Program-made: the position numbers and the translations under genes | Assembly: GCA_035529855.1 (NCBI GenBank) | Contig: DATKVX010000079.1 | Location: 1-64,000 of the forward strand | DNA: 64,000 nt | Direction: 5' to 3' | DNA from: a bacterium | GTDB lineage: Bacteria > RBG-13-66-14 > B26-G2 > WVWN01 | Notes under the pieces: generated by a model | Seen by the model: only the letters and a program-made list of their open reading frames with translations | What the model was told of the DNA's origin: nothing | Databases searched by the model: none | In this document: positions 3,122 to 16,493 of the stretch, in pieces | How positions within the stretch are numbered: position 1 is the stretch's first letter | How the letters are laid out: each line of letters begins with the position of its first letter

Positions 3122-3931
3122 TCACTTCTCGCCGAGGGTAGGAAGTAGAGCCTCGAGCAAGGTTTTGATTTGCCGGCCGGGTTCCTCGGCGCCGAGCAGG
3201 ACGTCGTCGTGGCTCGCGGCGCCGCCGGCGACGTTGGCGACCGCGCACAGCGCGAGAACGCGCAGGCCCGCCTGGCGAGCGACCAGCGCCTCGTTGGGAA
3301 TGGACATGCCGACGACGTCGCCGCCCAGGCTCGCGAGGGCGTGCGCTTCGGCGGCGGTCTCGTATTGCGGCCCGGGGACGCCGACGTACACGGCCTCTTT
3401 GAGCATGAAACCCAACGGTTCGGCGACCTCTTCGGCCCGTTCGCGAATGTCCGCGTCGTACGCGTCGGCGGCGGCGACGAAGCGGGGCCCGAACTCGTCG
3501 TCGTGGCGGCCGGCGAAGGGCGACGCCGCGGCGAAGTTTAAGTGGTCGCGAACGACGGCGACGTTGCCCGGGCCAAACTCCTCGCGCAGCGAGCCCACGG
3601 CGCCCGTGAGGATGACGGTCCGGCAGCCCAGCCGGGCGAAGAGGCGTATCGGCAGCGTCGCGACGTCGGCGGGAATCCCCTCGTAGAGGTGGAGGCGGCC
3701 TTCGGCGACGACGACGTCGACGTCGCCGGCACGGCCGAAGGCGAATAGGCCGCGGTGGCCTTCAACGCTCGGTTTCGCCAAGTGCGGGACTTCGGCGAAC
3801 GGGACCTCGCACACGACGTCGAACGCGGGGCGCGGCAGGCCGGAGCCGAGGACGACGGCGACCTCCGGCTCGAGTTCACACTTGCGGCGGAGGTAGCGGT
3901 ACGATACGTCTACGTCTTTGGGGGTTAGCAT
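3122..3931 (-). CDS. punA: Purine nucleoside phosphorylase
   Basis: A 269-residue trimeric-type purine nucleoside phosphorylase, which splits purine nucleosides with phosphate into base and ribose-1-phosphate in the salvage pathway. Visible family motifs: the phosphate loop VVLGSGL (27-32), GRLHLYEG (78-85) with the active-site His, ILTGAVGSL, GPQYETAAE, and GMSIPNEALVARQAG followed by the N of CAVANVAGG. The length is normal. A GGAAGG Shine-Dalgarno precedes the ATG. It is the first gene of the minus-strand operon driven by the promoter at 3953-3981. Confidence 0.9.
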   Translation of the reverse strand: MLTPKDVDVSYRYLRRKCELEPEVAVVLGSGLPRPAFDVVCEVPFAEVPHLAKPSVEGHRGLFAFGRAGDVDVVVAEGRLHLYEGIPADVATLPIRLFARLGCRTVILTGAVGSLREEFGPGNVAVVRDHLNFAAASPFAGRHDDEFGPRFVAAADAYDADIRERAEEVAEPLGFMLKEAVYVGVPGPQYETAAEAHALASLGGDVVGMSIPNEALVARQAGLRVLALCAVANVAGGAASHDDVLLGAEEPGRQIKTLLEALLPTLGEK

Positions 3932-3952
3932 TAGGGCGTCCCTTCCGTAACT

Positions 3953-3981
3953 AATATAAAATAAATTCGGGGTTTTGGCAA
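3953..3981 (-). promoter_or_regulatory. Sigma-70-like promoter of punA operon
   Basis: On the minus strand TTGCCA (3981-3976) and TATATT (3958-3953) are separated by 17 bases. The promoter faces away from the one at 4054-4082, so the two units are divergently transcribed from this AT-rich gap. Confidence 0.6.
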
Positions 3982-4053
3982 ATATCGTTTACGCGTCCGA
4001 TGCTACGGTAGACGGGAAAATAAACTAGGGAATGAGTATTTTTAGGTTCATCG

Positions 4054-4082
4054 TTGACACGATGGTAACGATATGTTATATT
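4054..4082 (+). promoter_or_regulatory. Near-consensus sigma-70 promoter of two-gene island
   Basis: A perfect TTGACA (4054-4059), a 17-base spacer and TATATT (4077-4082). The -10 box lies just after an in-frame ATG at 4073, so transcripts starting near 4089 cannot use that ATG. This is the main evidence for the later start chosen for the next gene. Confidence 0.75.
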
Positions 4083-4165
4083 ATTATCAGGCCGTTCGGG
4101 TAAAACTGCCGTGCTGGAATAAAGCTTTAATAATTACTATTCGGCTCCTTACGAGTTTTAAAATT

Positions 4166-8142: not shown

Positions 8143-9105
8143 GTGAAAAAAATAATAGCTTATACGGCGTCGGCGTTTACGGCCGCGGCCGCGTGGGGCA
8201 TCTGGGTATACGAAGGCGGTTGGGGTAGCGAAGGGCGCGGCGACGGCCAATTCTACTTCCCGCGCAGCGTGGCTTGCGCCCCGGGCGGGAACGTCTACGT
8301 GGCCGATACCAGCAATAACCGGATACAATATTTCACCGCCGACGGTTCGTTCTTGGGTAAGTGGGGTAAGGTCGGGTCCCTCGAAGGCCAGTTCAAAAAC
8401 CCGCGCCACCTCGCCGTAACGTCGGGCGGTCGCGTCTACGTGGCCGACGGCGGCAACAGCCGCGTGCAATATTTTACGGCGAACGGTTCTTTTCTCGGCG
8501 CTTGGGGCTCGAGCGGTACCGGCGACGGCGAGTTCGATATCCCGCGCGGGTTGGCGCTGGCGTCCGACGGAAAAGTTTATATAGCCGATACCGACAACTT
8601 CCGCGTTCAGTACTTTACCTCTTCGGGCTCGTTCCTGGGTAAATGGGGCTCCGAGGGTAAAGGCGACGGCCAATTCAACCTGCCGCGTGCCATAGCCGTC
8701 GCCCCCAACGGCGACGTTTACGTGGCGGATACTCAGAACCACCGGCTCCAGTACTTCACTCCCGCCGGTTCTTTTCTCGGGAAATGGGGCAGCCTCGGCG
8801 CCGCACCCGGGAAATTCCAAGTTCCTACGGGTGTCGCCGTGGCGCCCGACGGCACCGTCTTCGTGGCGGACCTGGCCAACTTCCGCATACAATATTTCAC
8901 GCCTACCGGCTCGTTCCTTGGGACGTGGGGGAAGAGAGGGAGCGGCCCCGGCGAGTTCAATTATGCGTACGGCGTCGCCGTTGCGCCGGGCGCGGTTCGC
9001 GTCTATACGGCCGAAATGCGTAACCACCGGATACAGTATTTCCGGGAGTCCGAACCCGCCGTCTTGCCGACGTCGTTGGGCCGCGTTAAAGCTTTGTTCG
9101 ATTAG
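8143..9105 (+). CDS. Secreted NHL-repeat six-bladed propeller with C-terminal tail motif
   Basis: A 320-residue exported protein: short signal peptide (MKKIIAYTASAFTAAAAW), then six NHL blades of about 47 residues. Each has the pattern GDGQFxxPRxxAVAPxGxVYVADTxNxRxQYFTxxGSFLGKWG. NHL propellers bind proteins, glycans or RNA; here the signal peptide implies a periplasmic or surface role. The last residues, PTSLGRVKALFD, fall outside the propeller and recur almost unchanged at the end of the next gene. The start is GTG 8143, preceded by a GAGAGAGGATGAG stretch. The near-identical blades suggest recent internal duplication. Confidence 0.85.
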   Translation: MKKIIAYTASAFTAAAAWGIWVYEGGWGSEGRGDGQFYFPRSVACAPGGNVYVADTSNNRIQYFTADGSFLGKWGKVGSLEGQFKNPRHLAVTSGGRVYVADGGNSRVQYFTANGSFLGAWGSSGTGDGEFDIPRGLALASDGKVYIADTDNFRVQYFTSSGSFLGKWGSEGKGDGQFNLPRAIAVAPNGDVYVADTQNHRLQYFTPAGSFLGKWGSLGAAPGKFQVPTGVAVAPDGTVFVADLANFRIQYFTPTGSFLGTWGKRGSGPGEFNYAYGVAVAPGAVRVYTAEMRNHRIQYFRESEPAVLPTSLGRVKALFD

Positions 9106-9149
9106 ATGTTCGCGGGGCGGTCGGGAAAACAGCGGCCGCTATTTTTGTC

Positions 9150-9177
9150 TTGACAATAGGAATTATTTGGTTATAAT
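9150..9177 (+). promoter_or_regulatory. Consensus sigma-70 promoter
   Basis: Exact TTGACA (9150-9155) and exact TATAAT (9172-9177) with a 16-base spacer, the best promoter in the window. The predicted leader to the GTG at 9332 is about 148 bases and holds a small inverted repeat (ACGTTC ... GAACGT, 9230-9252). Confidence 0.75.
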
Positions 9178-9331
9178 CGGTATTAGAGGAGGGGGATTCC
9201 GCGTTTCGACCGCGCGTATCTACGGGAAGACGTTCTTAGTGCGCGGGAACGTTTGCGGGTAGAGGAAGGGCTCCGGGATGTTTTGAAGTTACGGACTAAC
9301 TGGCCCTTTACCAAAACCTAGGGGGTGATTC

Positions 9332-10156
9332 GTGATCATTAAACGTGCGATAATAGCCGCGGTGGTTTGCACGGCAAGCGTGGCGTTCGCCGGAATGGGG
9401 TCGTTGATAGCGTCGTTCCCCAACGCCGGTAAAAGTACCCATTACGGCATGGCCGCGGACCTCGAATACCTATATTCGTTCCATAACGACATCGTCCGGG
9501 ATTACCCCATAAACGTCCTCCGGCGGTCCGACGGGTTCTTTGTACGGTCGATAGAGGTCCCGTTCCCGCCGTTGGAGAAACCGTACGTCCGGGGGGTTGG
9601 TTACGAGGGCGACGGGACGTTGGGGCAGGGCTACCTCCACCTGAATAACTACGGGTACCGGTACGTCGCGAAGGTCCGGGTGGCCAACGGGAAGCTGGTC
9701 GGCTCGTGGCAATGGAGCGGCGGCGACAACAGGTACGGCTTATGCGCCGAGAACGACAAGACCCGGATCGGGACCCTTAAGGGTTTCTACCAGAGCTACT
9801 TGAGCGGCGTCTGGTGGCACTCCGATAAAAAGGGCAGCTTGATATCGTCGTGGCGGTCGCCGGTGACGAATTACGCGTACGACCTCGCCTGGGATTACCG
9901 CAACAACTTTATCTGGTACGCCAACTCCAGCACGAATTGGGTCTTCGGTATGACGACCGCCGGGTCCATCCGGGAGTCTTGGCCTTTGAAAAGCGGCGTT
10001 CGGTACGCGTACGGCATCGCCTATTACGCCCACCGCTTGTACGTGAGTACTTCCGGCGGCTCTCCGGACGAATACATCTGGGTTTACGATTGCCCGGTGT
10101 CTACGGCCCGCGTCGAGCCGGCTTCCCTGGGCCGGGTCAAGGCCTTGTTCGAATAA
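9332..10156 (+). CDS. Secreted protein of propeller-like composition, same C-terminal tail motif
   Basis: A 274-residue protein with a clear Sec signal peptide (IIKRAIIAAVVCTASVAFAG). The mature part is rich in Trp, Tyr and Gly with repeated strand-like units (LYSFHNDIVRDY, YVAKVRVANGKLVGSW, FIWYANSSTNWVFGMTT, LYVSTSGGSPDEYIWVYD). This fits a beta-propeller, but no family is recognised. It ends VEPASLGRVKALFE, matching the tail of the NHL protein upstream in 9 consecutive residues with different codons. The GTG start follows an AGGGGGTG Shine-Dalgarno. Its own strong promoter suggests high expression. Confidence 0.75.
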   Translation: MIIKRAIIAAVVCTASVAFAGMGSLIASFPNAGKSTHYGMAADLEYLYSFHNDIVRDYPINVLRRSDGFFVRSIEVPFPPLEKPYVRGVGYEGDGTLGQGYLHLNNYGYRYVAKVRVANGKLVGSWQWSGGDNRYGLCAENDKTRIGTLKGFYQSYLSGVWWHSDKKGSLISSWRSPVTNYAYDLAWDYRNNFIWYANSSTNWVFGMTTAGSIRESWPLKSGVRYAYGIAYYAHRLYVSTSGGSPDEYIWVYDCPVSTARVEPASLGRVKALFE

Positions 10157-10591: not shown

Positions 10592-13252
10592 GTGCGCGTA
10601 AAATATTTAAAGAGAAATCTCGCCGGGGCAGCGTTGATATTGCTCGCGGCGAACGTAGCGGGCGCTGCCGACACCGGGACGATTTCCGGTTTGGTAACGG
10701 GCCAGAACGGCGAGCCCTTATCCGGGGTTTTTATCGTCGTAAAGGGTGCGCAGCGATTTGCCACGTCGAACGCTGACGGGTATTACGTCATCACGCCGGT
10801 CCCGGTAGGTATATTCGAAGTTAAAGCGTCGCGTATAGGCTATACCGAACAGGTTAGGACGGGCGTTAAGGTCATCGCCGGCTTGAGGACCAATGCTTCG
10901 TTCCAACTGCAGTCCGGCGGGGCGACGGGTACGGTCTACATCCAATCGGAAGAACCTCTCATCAAGTGGACCGAGACCTATACCGAGGTCATTATCGGCA
11001 GAGAGCAGCTCGATACCCAGGTAGTCGATGAATTCGCCGACGTGCTTGTTCGGACGCCCGGCATCGTTTACGAGACCAGCGACGCGTCTACGTTGAACCT
11101 CCACATCCGCGGCGGCCGCGGAAGCGAAATCGCGTACATCGTAGACGGCGTGAACATTACCAACCCCATCGTCGGCGGCGCCGGCATGCAGATCCCGGTC
11201 GACGCCATAGAGCAGATGAACGTCATCACCGCGGGTTGGGACGCCGAATTCGGCGAAGCGCAGTCCGGGATTATCAACATCCAAACTAAAGAGGGCCGCG
11301 ACAAGTACACCGGCGAGGTAGGCGTAACCCAGGAGATTTACACCGCCAAGCGGGAGTGGGATTCGCACAAGGCGCTGGAGTCGACCGGCCTGGAGGACCC
11401 TGCCAGCCCGCTCATATCTTGGCACACCGCGACCCGCGAGACCAAGTACTCCAAGTACCGCGGCTCGTTCGGCGGCCCCATTTGGCCGGGCGTCGACGAA
11501 CTCGGCTACTTCGCCGCCGGTGACTACACCCGCGACTGGAGCGTATACCCGCTACCGGAGCCCGCTATTCAGTGGAACGCCAACGGCAAGCTCTCCATCA
11601 GGCCTACCGGCCGGGTGCGTATGGTCGTGAGCGGCGGCCGGGCGTGGGAAGAACGCCAGCTCTTCAAGAACGAGTACCAGTACAATCTCGACGGTTACTA
11701 CTACCGCAAGGAAGGGTCCAGCCGGTTGAGCGCGAACGTTACGCATAACGTATCGGACCGCTTCTATTACAGCGTTACCGGCGCGACCTTCAAGAACAAC
11801 CGTTCGCTCATAACGGGCGGGAAGCACTGGACCGATTACGACCTCAACCGTGTTAAAACCGACCCCACCGGGTGGTTCGTAACCTCCGGCGACTTTCCCA
11901 TCTACGAGACGCGGGACCAGGTCTACTTCGACGGCAAGGCCGACTTCCAGTACGAAATAGCCCGTGTCGGCGACAACCGCGCGTTGTCCTTGAACGTCAT
12001 CAAGGGCGGCGTGGGGTTCAAGAACCAAGACGTCAACTTCTACCAGGTTCAGACCTATCCGGCCAACGTCTACACCAACATCTTCCACGTCTATCCCTTC
12101 GAAAGCCACGCCTACCTCCAGGATAAGCTGGAATACTCGGGTATGGTAATTAACATCGGGTTGCGTTTCGACGTCTTTGCCCCCAACGCGTCGTACCCCG
12201 ACGACCCCTTCAACTACCGGTGGGGTTTCGCTCACAGCCCGACCTCCGGCGAGGAATTGGTAGGAGTCAACTCCGCATCGCCGTACCGCTTCTATTGGGA
12301 TATGCCGCGGCTCGAGGCGAAGAATTCCTATCAGGTGAGCCCGCGCGTGGGCGTCTCCTACCCGATCTCGGACCGCGATAAACTCCACTTCTCGTACGGC
12401 CACTTCTTCCAAGTACCGCCGTTGATCTACCTCTACCAGAGTACGCAGACGCAGTTGACCGGCGCGTACCCCATTATGGGTAACCCGGACCTCGCGCCCC
12501 AGAAGACGGTGCAATACGAGATCGGCGTCGAGCACCTCTTCACCGACGACCTCAAAGCCAAGGTCTCGGCGTACTTCAAGGACATCCGGGACCTCATCGA
12601 CACCGACCGTATCAACTACGCGCAGGGTTGGAACTACACCAAGATCGTGAACGCCGATTTCGGTTCGGTGCGCGGCATGGAGCTCACCATCGATAAACGG
12701 ATGACGAGGCACTTCTCCGGTAATCTCGGATATACCTTCTCCGTGGCCAAGGGCCTCGCGTCTAACTACTATCAGGGCTATAACTACGCGTACCGCGGCT
12801 GGAACGTTCCTAACCAAGAGAACCTGCTCAACTGGGACCAAACCCACAAGCTCGACCTGACCTTGGACTACCGGACTAATTTCAGCATCCACAACTTCGG
12901 CGCCAATACCACCGTCTCCTACGGGTCCGGTATGCCTTACTCCAAACCGCCGTCGGGAGCCGGCCAGCCCGAGATTAATTCCGAGCGTATGCCCTGGACG
13001 TTGAACTGGAACGTGAAGGGCGAGTACTCGGTAACTTATTGGGGCTTGACCTACACCGCCTTCTGCGAGGTTATCAACCTCCTCAACCGCGAAAACGTTT
13101 TCAACTTCGGCGAGGACGAAGGAGACGGCGCGGGCTCCGACTGGCTGCCGTGGTACTACCGCTACGGCGACCCGAACGGCCCGTACGACGATATGGAATG
13201 CTTTGGCGACCCGTTGCGCTTGCGCGTCGGGTTGGACATAGGGTTCCTCTAA
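10592..13252 (+). CDS. TonB-dependent receptor with carboxypeptidase-regulatory-like N-domain
   Basis: An 886-residue outer-membrane receptor. Signal peptide 1-25 (ends VAGAAD). Then a CarbopepD_reg/CNA-B-like beta-sandwich (GTISGLVTGQNGEPLSGVFIVVKG, about 28-110), a plug domain (DEFADVLVRTPGIVYE, LHIRGGRGSEIAYIVDGVNITNP, about 140-250) and a beta-barrel ending LRLRVGLDIGFL. The plug signature IRGGRGSEIAYIVDG is typical of FCB-type receptors. It imports or exports large ligands using TonB energy; the substrate is unknown. GTG start after GAAAGGGGGTG. It heads a cassette with the next two genes. Confidence 0.88.
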   Translation: MRVKYLKRNLAGAALILLAANVAGAADTGTISGLVTGQNGEPLSGVFIVVKGAQRFATSNADGYYVITPVPVGIFEVKASRIGYTEQVRTGVKVIAGLRTNASFQLQSGGATGTVYIQSEEPLIKWTETYTEVIIGREQLDTQVVDEFADVLVRTPGIVYETSDASTLNLHIRGGRGSEIAYIVDGVNITNPIVGGAGMQIPVDAIEQMNVITAGWDAEFGEAQSGIINIQTKEGRDKYTGEVGVTQEIYTAKREWDSHKALESTGLEDPASPLISWHTATRETKYSKYRGSFGGPIWPGVDELGYFAAGDYTRDWSVYPLPEPAIQWNANGKLSIRPTGRVRMVVSGGRAWEERQLFKNEYQYNLDGYYYRKEGSSRLSANVTHNVSDRFYYSVTGATFKNNRSLITGGKHWTDYDLNRVKTDPTGWFVTSGDFPIYETRDQVYFDGKADFQYEIARVGDNRALSLNVIKGGVGFKNQDVNFYQVQTYPANVYTNIFHVYPFESHAYLQDKLEYSGMVINIGLRFDVFAPNASYPDDPFNYRWGFAHSPTSGEELVGVNSASPYRFYWDMPRLEAKNSYQVSPRVGVSYPISDRDKLHFSYGHFFQVPPLIYLYQSTQTQLTGAYPIMGNPDLAPQKTVQYEIGVEHLFTDDLKAKVSAYFKDIRDLIDTDRINYAQGWNYTKIVNADFGSVRGMELTIDKRMTRHFSGNLGYTFSVAKGLASNYYQGYNYAYRGWNVPNQENLLNWDQTHKLDLTLDYRTNFSIHNFGANTTVSYGSGMPYSKPPSGAGQPEINSERMPWTLNWNVKGEYSVTYWGLTYTAFCEVINLLNRENVFNFGEDEGDGAGSDWLPWYYRYGDPNGPYDDMECFGDPLRLRVGLDIGFL

Positions 13253-13266
13253 TAACGAATACGTTG

Positions 13267-13290
13267 GGGGTCGCCCAGGCCGGCGACCCC
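13267..13290 (+). promoter_or_regulatory. Intercistronic hairpin
   Basis: GGGGTCGCC / GGCGACCCC, a 9-bp perfect stem with a 6-base loop, in the 77-base gap after the receptor gene. A C-run rather than a T-run follows, so it is more likely an mRNA-stability or partial-attenuation element than a terminator. Confidence 0.5.
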
Positions 13291-13329
13291 TCCCCCCCCG
13301 AATCTCTTCCGAGAAAGGAGAGGGGAGAG

Positions 13330-15519
13330 TTGAGGATAATAAGACGAATAGGGCCGATACCACGTCTAATCTTGACGGGTGTAGTGGCCGCGGGCGCGGT
13401 TGTACTCTTGACCGCGGCTATGAAGAACGGCGTTCGCGCCGGGCCCGGCGGATTGGACGTACGGGTGTTTGACTACCTGGACGTCAATAACTTCTGGATG
13501 AAGATCTGGAACCAGCAGATGATCGGCGACAGCACGAGCGATACCAACGGCGAGTGGCCCGGCGGTTCCGGCGTCCATTACGTCTACGCCGGTTACACGT
13601 GGTTCGGCACCTTGATAAGCGGCGAGATTTACGTCAGCGGCGCTATGGCCATCGGCAGCGGCTCAGACCCCGAGTGGCACGAGCTCCCACCCACGGAGAA
13701 CGAGCTGCTGATGAGCGACAAGGGCAACTGGGAGGAGAAGAAGCCGTCGTACGTCAAGACCACCGGCGACCTTGACTCCTACGCCATATGCGACGACTCC
13801 CATGCGGGCGAAAGAGGCCCCATCCCGTGCCAGCTCGAGTACCACGGCATCTGTTGGTCCGCGCCCGGCCACGACGACTGGATCGTCCTCGAGTGCTGGC
13901 TCACCAACAAGAACTCGAGCACTCTCGATGATTGCTACATCTCGCTGGCGTACGACATCGACATCGGCGGCTCGCTCGACTACATCGACGACCTCGTCGG
14001 TTACGAGGGCAACGAGGTCTACGACCTCTGGACGAACCCGACCAGGGCGGGCGCCGACTGGACGGAGGAATTCCCCGACGGCATACCGGACGAATACGAC
14101 GCGGTTAACTTCACCTCCACTTCCGCCACTAAGCCCATCGACAAGGAAATGAACGGCTGGCCCCGCATGATGGCCTACATGTACGACGAGGGCGGCGAAG
14201 CCCGCGACACGCCGGGCTATTGCGGCGTCCGCGTCATGGGCTGGATGGACGACGCCGAAAAGGTCGACAGCCTGATCGAGATCTCGAGCCAGCACTCCTG
14301 GGACATCATGAACGACCCCGATACCGACGCCTACAAGTACGGCTACATGATCGACGTCGGCACCTTCGAGGAGATCAACACCGCCTACGACTGGCGCATC
14401 GACCCGGCTTTCGGGCCCTTCGAGATGGAACCCGACGAGGTCCTCCACTGGTGGACCGGCGTAATTATGGGCCCCGACCTCAACGGCCTGCGCAAGAACT
14501 CGGATGCGCTGTACGCCGACTTCCTGGGCCCCGACGGCCTACCGGGAACCGGCGACGACTGGGAAGTGGTATCGCCGCCGACGTCGCCCCGTTTGGTGGG
14601 GGTGCGCGGCGACAACCAGGTAACGATTCGCTGGAACCCGCGTTACAAGGCGGGTAAAAATACCGAGACCGACAGAGACCCCCGTTCCGACTTACGGGAT
14701 TTCGACGGCTACATCGTGTGGCGCTCCGACGTCGGCTTCGACTCCGGCTGGACACCGGTCCTGTGGGTAGACAAGCTAAGCCAGAAAGGCCCCGATAACC
14801 CGGACGCCGACAAGAGGTTCTACGCTTGGGGCTGGCGCGTAAAGAACCGGCCTAAGCTTTTTCTTAACGAGGTTGTCCCCACCGGTCAGGGTAACGAACC
14901 CGATTTACAAGGAAAGACGGCCGTAGCTCTCGAGGATATCGGTGGGTCGTTCCCGACGAATACCCGCGGGGGCGGCGCGGTGCGGTTGCGCAAGGTTTCC
15001 GGCTATTACGAGTTGGTGGACGGCGTGGACGCGACCGGCGTCGTCACGGGTGACCTGAATAACGGTACCCGCTACTACTACGCCGTCGTGGGGTACGATT
15101 TCGGTAGAAAAACCGAAAAGGGCGGCGACCGCCCGACCGCGGGCGGTAGGAACGTCAACGCGCTAGAGGTTATTCCCTTACCGATGGCGCGCGACGTAAT
15201 GGACGATATCCGTGTAGTTCCCAACCCGTACAAGGGCAGCGCGGATTGGGAGGAGTGGACCGGTTCCGGCGTACGCCTCGGCAAGATCTACTTCATGAAC
15301 TTGCCGGAAAAGTGCACCGTCCGGATCTACACCATCGCGGGAGATCTCGTCCGTATGTTGGAACACAACGACGTCACCTTCGGCGCCTTAGGCTGGGACC
15401 TCACCGGCGAAGCGGGCGTCCAGGTGGCGAGCGGTATCTACATCTATCACGTTGATGCGCCCGATTACGGCGAGAAGCTTGGGAAGTTCGCCATCTTAGT
15501 CGGTCGCCAAAGCCAATAA
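13330..15519 (+). CDS. Large secreted protein with Fn3-like and FlgD-like C-terminal domains
   Basis: A 729-residue exported protein. Start TTG 13330, after AGGAGAGGGGAG; the frame continues upstream over the receptor 3' end but without a better start. N-terminal hydrophobic segment LILTGVVAAGAVVLLTAAM acts as signal or anchor. The central part is rich in Asp, Trp and Tyr. A fibronectin-III-like region follows (PTSPRLVGVRGDNQVTIRWNP). The C-terminal about 100 residues (VVPNPYKGSADWEEW, LPEKCTVRIYTIAGDLVRML, GVQVASGIYIYHV) are the FlgD Ig-like fold that in Bacteroidetes relatives serves as a type IX sorting domain. With a receptor before and a PorV-like gene after, surface display is likely. 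Confidence 0.75.
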   Translation: MRIIRRIGPIPRLILTGVVAAGAVVLLTAAMKNGVRAGPGGLDVRVFDYLDVNNFWMKIWNQQMIGDSTSDTNGEWPGGSGVHYVYAGYTWFGTLISGEIYVSGAMAIGSGSDPEWHELPPTENELLMSDKGNWEEKKPSYVKTTGDLDSYAICDDSHAGERGPIPCQLEYHGICWSAPGHDDWIVLECWLTNKNSSTLDDCYISLAYDIDIGGSLDYIDDLVGYEGNEVYDLWTNPTRAGADWTEEFPDGIPDEYDAVNFTSTSATKPIDKEMNGWPRMMAYMYDEGGEARDTPGYCGVRVMGWMDDAEKVDSLIEISSQHSWDIMNDPDTDAYKYGYMIDVGTFEEINTAYDWRIDPAFGPFEMEPDEVLHWWTGVIMGPDLNGLRKNSDALYADFLGPDGLPGTGDDWEVVSPPTSPRLVGVRGDNQVTIRWNPRYKAGKNTETDRDPRSDLRDFDGYIVWRSDVGFDSGWTPVLWVDKLSQKGPDNPDADKRFYAWGWRVKNRPKLFLNEVVPTGQGNEPDLQGKTAVALEDIGGSFPTNTRGGGAVRLRKVSGYYELVDGVDATGVVTGDLNNGTRYYYAVVGYDFGRKTEKGGDRPTAGGRNVNALEVIPLPMARDVMDDIRVVPNPYKGSADWEEWTGSGVRLGKIYFMNLPEKCTVRIYTIAGDLVRMLEHNDVTFGALGWDLTGEAGVQVASGIYIYHVDAPDYGEKLGKFAILVGRQSQ

Positions 15520-15533
15520 GGGAGGTAAGACAG

Positions 15534-16493
15534 ATGCGTAAGATCCTAATGGCGTATGCGGCTTTGGCGATGGTTTGTGCGTCGTGCGCTTTCGCCGCCG
15601 GCAAAGAGGGCACCTCCGGCGCCAAGTTCTTAAACGTCGGGGTTGGCGCTCGCGCCGCGGCGATGGCCGATGCATACGACCCGATAGCGTCAGGGCCGGA
15701 AGCCATATTCTGGAACGCCGCCGGCCTGGTCAACGTTGAGAACCAGGGCATTACGGTCAGCGACAACGAGTGGGTAGTCGATACCCGTATGGTCGCCGGC
15801 GCGTACGCTCGCAGGTTCGGCTTCGGCACGGTCGGTTTTATGGTTGAATCCTTGATGTACGGCTCGATGGATGAGACCACCGTCCAACATCCCGACGGCA
15901 CCGGCAATACCTTCGGCGCGATGGATATGGCCGCCGGCGTCGCTCTGGGACGGCGACTGACCGACCGCTTCTCCGTCGGGGGAACGGTCAAGATGGTTCG
16001 TCTGTCGTTCAGCGACGTAGAGGGTGTCGACCCGGCGATGGGCGTCGCCTTCGACGTGGGGACGCAGTATATGACCGGCTTTCGTACCCTCCGCATGGCG
16101 ATCACGCTGCAGAACCTAGGGCCGGAAATGCAATACGGCGGAACTTATCGCGAGCTTCAGCGGACCCGCGAGAGTTACGAAGAGGAAGAATTCGAATCCT
16201 TCAGCTTGCCCGTCGTCGTCCGCTTAGGCGTGGCTTACGACCCGGTAGAGAGCATGACGTTATGCGTGAACGCCGCGCACCCCAACGACGGCGACGAGAC
16301 GTTGGATTTCGGCGGCGAGTGGTGGCCGCTGAAGATGGTCGCCATCCGGGGCGGCTATAAGCTCAACTACGACGAGGCCAAGTACACGGGCGGCGTAGGC
16401 TTCAAATTTAGCGGCTTCCGCCCCGACCTGGCATACAGCAACATAGGTCGGTTGGGTTACTCGCTCAAGGCCACCCTCAACTACGACTTCTAA
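15534..16493 (+). CDS. PorV/PorQ-family outer-membrane protein
   Basis: A 319-residue protein with signal peptide (MAYAALAMVCASCAFAAG). The family hallmark is seen at the start of the mature part: SGAKFLNVGVGARAAAMADAYDPIASGPEAIFWNAAGLV. A FadL-like beta-barrel follows and ends LGYSLKATLNYDF with the C-terminal Phe of barrels. PorV is the shuttle that takes type IX cargo from the translocon to the attachment complex; other PorV/PorQ relatives occur in phyla with no proven type IX system. It lies 14 bases after the FlgD-domain protein, in the same cassette, with GGGAGG as Shine-Dalgarno. Confidence 0.82.
   Translation: MRKILMAYAALAMVCASCAFAAGKEGTSGAKFLNVGVGARAAAMADAYDPIASGPEAIFWNAAGLVNVENQGITVSDNEWVVDTRMVAGAYARRFGFGTVGFMVESLMYGSMDETTVQHPDGTGNTFGAMDMAAGVALGRRLTDRFSVGGTVKMVRLSFSDVEGVDPAMGVAFDVGTQYMTGFRTLRMAITLQNLGPEMQYGGTYRELQRTRESYEEEEFESFSLPVVVRLGVAYDPVESMTLCVNAAHPNDGDETLDFGGEWWPLKMVAIRGGYKLNYDEAKYTGGVGFKFSGFRPDLAYSNIGRLGYSLKATLNYDF

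Follow-up and report, generated by a model that had tools for sequence, protein, structure and literature searches.

The locus lies in a 64,000-nt stretch of DNA (the window) from a genome of 2.62 Mb, which we infer to belong to the phylum Candidatus Coatesbacteria. Two adjacent genes on the forward strand encode exported proteins. The first ORF (8143..9105, +) encodes a six-bladed NHL propeller protein of 320 aa with the signal peptide MKKIIAYTASAFTAAAAWG; it matches the NHL family in Pfam (1.3e-43), and its propeller is modelled by AlphaFold with pLDDT >90. The second ORF (9332..10156, +) encodes a 274-aa protein with a signal peptide, which had no match in Pfam or NCBIfam and has a look-alike gene elsewhere in the genome (L040 rc 3283-4092). 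The two proteins end in similar tails that abut the stop codon, VLPTSLGRVKALFD (9061..9102, +) and VEPASLGRVKALFE (10112..10153, +), and both tails fit the genome-wide consensus described below. A prediction made from the sequence alone had described this shared tail at 9004-10156, a range that spans both tails but not all of the first gene. The shared ends held, as did the codon differences at synonymous sites between VLPTSLGRVKALFD and VEPASLGRVKALFE. The claim that the remainder of the two proteins is dissimilar also held, save for one marginal 74-residue piece that includes the tail (BLASTP, E=6e-4, single comparison).

The downstream genes provide the context. They encode a TonB-dependent receptor-like protein with a CarboxypepD_reg domain (10592..13252, +), a large protein (13039..15519, +) with a FlgD/PorZ-like type A C-terminal domain of the type IX secretion system and not the short tail, and a PorV-family outer-membrane protein, a candidate type IX shuttle (15612..16490, +; NF033709, 6.5e-49, over cut-off). 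The large protein matched the PorZ C-terminus model NF052228 at residues 718-808 (8.9e-7), and its real start is likely within the ORF. A profile search for TIGR04183 or the Ig-like type A domain of ~80 aa found no match in either of the two tailed window proteins.

The original prediction also placed the tail after the folded domain, and would have been refuted had the tail been part of the closing strand of the propeller. In the AlphaFold model of the NHL protein, the last strand occupies residues 296-302 and the propeller is closed at residue 302, and the tail (residues 308-320) is disordered, mostly with pLDDT <50. The placement therefore held, and the closing strand was rejected as an identity for the tail because the tail forms no strand in the model.

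The pattern G-x-[VI]-K-x-x-[FY]-x-stop gave 107 sites in the genome versus 0 for the reversed control pattern, and the strict tail motif occurred 6 times. The consensus of 99 inspected tails was V-x-P-[AT]-S-[LVFI]-G-[RK]-[VI]-K-A-[LI]-[FY]-[RKE], with V at 76%, P at 95% and S at 98%. The G and K were invariant in 99/99 tails, and the last residue was usually charged; the search pattern had fixed G, [VI], K and [FY], while the other consensus positions were free. Across the 99 copies, the 30 nt that encode the last ten residues came in 92 different versions, so that it is the peptide, not a DNA repeat, that is conserved. A signal peptide was detected in frame by a simple hydrophobicity rule for 77/99 tailed proteins. 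Most of the remaining genes were at contig ends or had the missing part in another frame, and the latter therefore look frameshifted; three had no recognisable upstream part. As far as this simple rule can tell, nearly all tails are probably borne by proteins with a signal peptide. After removal of signal and tail, the proteins fell into ten BLAST groups, representing about ten unrelated families. The largest group (46, propeller-like) and the second (20) are both expansions, and six are single. The tailed proteins have a median length of 256 aa and are almost only 200-330 aa long. Separately, tailed genes at L043, L057, L059, L063, L065 and L081 are split by frameshifts or have shrunk to short open frames in which the tail is still intact; such split or shortened genes could be assembly errors or decaying copies.

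A side observation concerns in-frame UGA codons in some tailed proteins. Ten proteins of one family have a UGA at the same site (PF-x-GCU, CGSU, CGTU or CAGU), with frame and signal peptide intact (L060 at G000:C82:11940-21200, - strand; L063, 2520; L075, 610; L080, 598). The hairpin 3' of the UGA has a conserved CAGG...CTGG core and outer stem positions that are changed but pairing, and a search of Rfam gave no match for these SECIS-like hairpins. Among the homologues from another species of this genus (L320, L321), five keep the UGA and the hairpin, and one without the UGA is also without the Cys. Homologous tailed proteins at L053 and L082 (TGA at 290 and 286), beta-helix-like by eye, have ...YFCPGU-GG, which contains a CxxU motif and has a hairpin behind it, and a tailed thioredoxin-like protein with a signal peptide (L038, 714) has VVLGELTTSTSU-AACPAAEAQF with a UxxC site (UAAC). 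Judging from the UGA codons, the hairpins and their conservation, and with no data on the selenocysteine machinery, we regard these as likely exported selenoproteins with Sec-Cys pairs.

The tail pattern was present in 14/14 genomes of the phylum examined. Copy numbers were 107-171 within the genus, 33 at the level of the order, 15 and 22 at that of the class, and 1-7 in the other group of the phylum, versus 0-2 in controls. In the other class the motif is shifted to [ST]-[WF]-G-x-[IV]-K, the residue ahead of Gly being mostly W/F (e.g., SSWGRVKALYQ, TSFGYIKALFR), and the tails are likewise mostly on signal-peptide proteins. Ends resembling TWGxIKxxYR occur in FCB phyla, and this was tested by a scan. 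The scan of 84,980 species genomes with the [ST]-[WF] form returned at least 116 stretches, with an estimated seven or so chance matches in the whole collection, of which Pantoea is the one clear case. These stretches were almost only from FCB-group bacteria or from records named just 'bacterium', and covered Eisenbacteria, Krumholzibacteria, Ignavibacteria, Zixibacteria, KSB1, Cloacimonadota, Delongbacteria, Calditrichota and Hymenobacteraceae; Candidatus Coatesbacteria (CP070633.1) was among them, with an NHL protein ending APASWGLIKALYR. The CP070633.1 genome and a same-genus relative gave identical counts (60 and 72), and the phylum assignment of the window is inferred from this. The peptide is kept across phyla while the neighbouring residues change. 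We conclude that a short C-terminal tag, conserved as a peptide, is carried by about 100 exported proteins of this genome and occurs phylum-wide and in many FCB phyla. The original prediction had pointed to similar tails in FCB-like phyla, and this held. Absence of the tail from other exported proteins would have refuted it, and instead the tail was found on about 100 of them here, in all relatives and across FCB phyla: the observation was correct but far larger in scale than had been said.

An exported protein of ~135 aa with one FN3-like domain and the tail at its end was found in Ignavibacteria, Hymenobacteraceae, KSB1, Calditrichota and Delongbacteria, and matched no family in Pfam or NCBIfam. 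Its TWGSIKAMFR end is nearly invariant and the attached FN3 domain weakly conserved, the scan pattern having demanded part of TWGSIKAMFR. The AlphaFold model shows a confident sandwich, with likeness to FN3 and other Ig-like domains; the tail lies outside the sandwich and is modelled as a helix of low confidence (pLDDT ~53). In both models, of this carrier and of the NHL protein, the tail is thus predicted to be a free extension of ~13 residues past a complete domain. The carrier gene often adjoins maf in Ignavibacteria and the XTP/dITP pyrophosphatase gene in Hymenobacter; such neighbourhoods were seen at L141, L152, L164, L190, L194, L196 and others. A dedicated partner gene beside the carrier was ruled out, the neighbours being maf and other housekeeping genes. 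Ignavibacteria and Hymenobacter apparently have a single tailed protein each, with no adjoining secretion gene. In the literature searched, we found neither tail peptides such as TWGSIKAMFR or GRVKALFR nor any description of C-terminal signals of Coatesbacteria or Eisenbacteria.

The prediction had suggested looking for a co-occurring transpeptidase or translocon. No sortase (PF04203) was found in the 14 phylum genomes and no exosortase (PF09721) scored over the cut-off in any of them, with one weak match in one relative, and both were rejected as partners. The type IX secretion system was the sole C-terminal-signal machine found, with homologues of SprA and of PorU in 14/14 phylum genomes. 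In this genome, SprA is a 1145-aa frame, SprA and PorU both score below the curated cut-off, and there are ten PorV-family matches, one directly behind PorU (C49) and one in the window. SprA scored over the cut-off in 29/34 tailed genomes from the scan, the exceptions being Pantoea, Reyranella, 'Verrucomicrobia B12_G4', one Cloacimonadota and one Eisenbacteria MAG. The Pantoea tail is a chance match, and the last two MAGs may be incomplete. Reyranella and 'Verrucomicrobia B12_G4' are likely, though not proven, to be mixed bins. We doubt the latter as a SprA-free tailed genome because no tail was found in 400 kb of its contigs 1-20 and the contig with the tail carries a type A-like domain as well, which is not conclusive. 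The co-occurrence of SprA with the tail is confounded by common FCB ancestry. Reviews call the type IX system Bacteroidota-specific; we observed SprA homologues well outside Bacteroidota, in Coatesbacteria, Eisenbacteria, Krumholzibacteria, Zixibacteria, KSB1 and others.

A review (PMC10202324) names only domains of types A, B and C as type IX signals, those of B and C being described over the last ~100 residues. Like types A (TIGR04183, PF18962), B (TIGR04131) and C, the tail ends Sec-exported, unrelated cargo of FCB bacteria that have SprA and PorU, and it shares with type A a lysine near the end, which matters in type A. In contrast, the known domains have ~70-100 residues, type A being an Ig-like sandwich, whereas the tail has ~13 residues and is predicted to be free. 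There is no detectable similarity between the tail and these domains, nor any evident likeness to the type A end (..ATKKMVVVR), and no Pfam or NCBIfam model covers the tail in the proteins tested. In this genome, none of 29 type A matches (TIGR04183) coincided with a tail, and the type A proteins have a median length of 731 aa versus 256 aa for the tailed proteins (p=5e-13). With fragments excluded, type A domains were observed only on proteins of >=417 aa. In one pair, a tailed 534-aa protein (C102) and a type A protein (C60) have a common region of 159 residues (29%, E 1e-13), past which the former has the tail, whereas the latter continues through an additional stretch into the type A domain. 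In another, on L181, the start of a 749-aa type A-like protein aligns with a tailed protein of 190 aa at 41% identity (E 4e-23). These exchanges on homologous proteins suggest that tail and type A domain are equivalent, alternative signals for one destination, though two cases are no proof. According to published work (PMC10202324), the final 22 residues of the HBP35 type A domain are enough to export GFP, and secretion is efficient only with the final 13 residues of a type A domain, which include conserved lysines.

Other C-terminal signals fit less well. PEP-CTERM/exosortase/rhombosortase-type signals are likewise short motifs on many exported proteins of one genome, but no transmembrane segment or basic cluster lies behind the tail and no exosortase scored over the cut-off in the phylum. 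LPXTG sortase signals are also C-terminal tags, but the tail has neither LPXTG nor a transmembrane segment, and the 14 genomes have no sortase. The beta-signal of the BAM complex is likewise at the extreme C-terminus with an aromatic residue near the end; in its consensus, positions Gly+3 and Gly+5 of the last barrel strand are hydrophobic. Gly+3 of the tail is Lys in 99/99 (Lys being in the search pattern) and the modelled carriers are not barrels, and the beta-signal was rejected by the Lys position.

Because the same peptide closes secreted proteins of many related phyla, the tail is likely an undescribed address label acting at or near the outer membrane. Its breadth, position, conservation and exposure make an envelope sorting or docking tag very likely, an inference without any experiment; the sorting or anchoring role originally proposed is thus supported, yet still inferred. 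For the full chain, with the type IX system reading the tail as a sorting peptide on small exported proteins, we estimate a probability of ~0.45; the route is inferred, with no experiment, from co-occurrence, exclusion of other machines, the size split, the swaps and the published export of GFP by 22 residues. In this model, the protein would be exported by Sec and then fold in the periplasm, with the tail staying exposed, perhaps folded into a short helix that is N-capped by S/T; hydrophobic-moment tests of helical amphipathicity were not above chance. A receptor in the envelope would bind the two residues that never vary, Gly and Lys, together with the hydrophobic positions W/L, V/I, L/M and F/Y. 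The likeliest receptor would be the type IX system, through the SprA translocon and a PorV-family shuttle, and the tail would serve small proteins as the type A domain of ~80 aa serves large ones. A bolder reading, which we hold more tentatively, sees in the tail a fourth class of type IX signal, only a peptide in size, which replaces the ~80-residue domain on small cargo, is carried by more than 100 proteins per genome in Coatesbacteria and is common to the FCB group.

The strongest rival is docking or retention independent of type IX: small exported proteins would be held in the periplasm or at the surface through binding of the tail to a dedicated receptor of the envelope, associated with the outer membrane, peptidoglycan or LPS. 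In its favor, the tail is short and free and its Gly and Lys never vary, as is typical of a linear binding motif; the tailed protein of Ignavibacteria and Hymenobacter stands singly, with no secretion gene linked to it; and a few tailed genomes have no detected SprA. On the other hand, no receptor gene was identified, SprA is present in nearly all tailed genomes, and the exchange of tail and type A domain suggests equivalence; on balance, we consider this rival possible without preferring it. Alternatively, the tail could mark proteins for quality control by a chaperone, folding factor or protease of the periplasm, with no bearing on location. Exposed C-terminal hydrophobic residues are a usual recognition site of periplasmic proteases and chaperones, which speaks for this. 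However, the motif is long, has invariant Gly and Lys and usually a charged last residue, and is FCB-restricted whereas such proteases are universal, so this is unlikely.

Two further readings set aside any signalling role. In one, the tail belongs to the structure of the attached domain, for instance as the closing strand of a propeller. The possibility that both window proteins are propellers supports this, but the reading is very unlikely given that the same tail is on unrelated families and lies outside both the closed propeller and the FN3 domain in the AlphaFold models. Spread at the DNA level by a repeat or gene conversion, without peptide function, would fit the tandem paralogues and the few orphan or frameshifted copies. 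It is all but excluded, rejected by the diversity of the coding sequences and by the retention of the peptide across phyla with altered neighbouring residues.

If the type IX sorting-peptide reading is true, the surface and secreted proteome of many uncultured phyla would be predictable from a short motif, and the minimal signal for cargo recognition at the FCB envelope would be defined. The FN3 carrier is present in cultured Hymenobacter and Melioribacter, so that the tail can be tested in lab-grown organisms.
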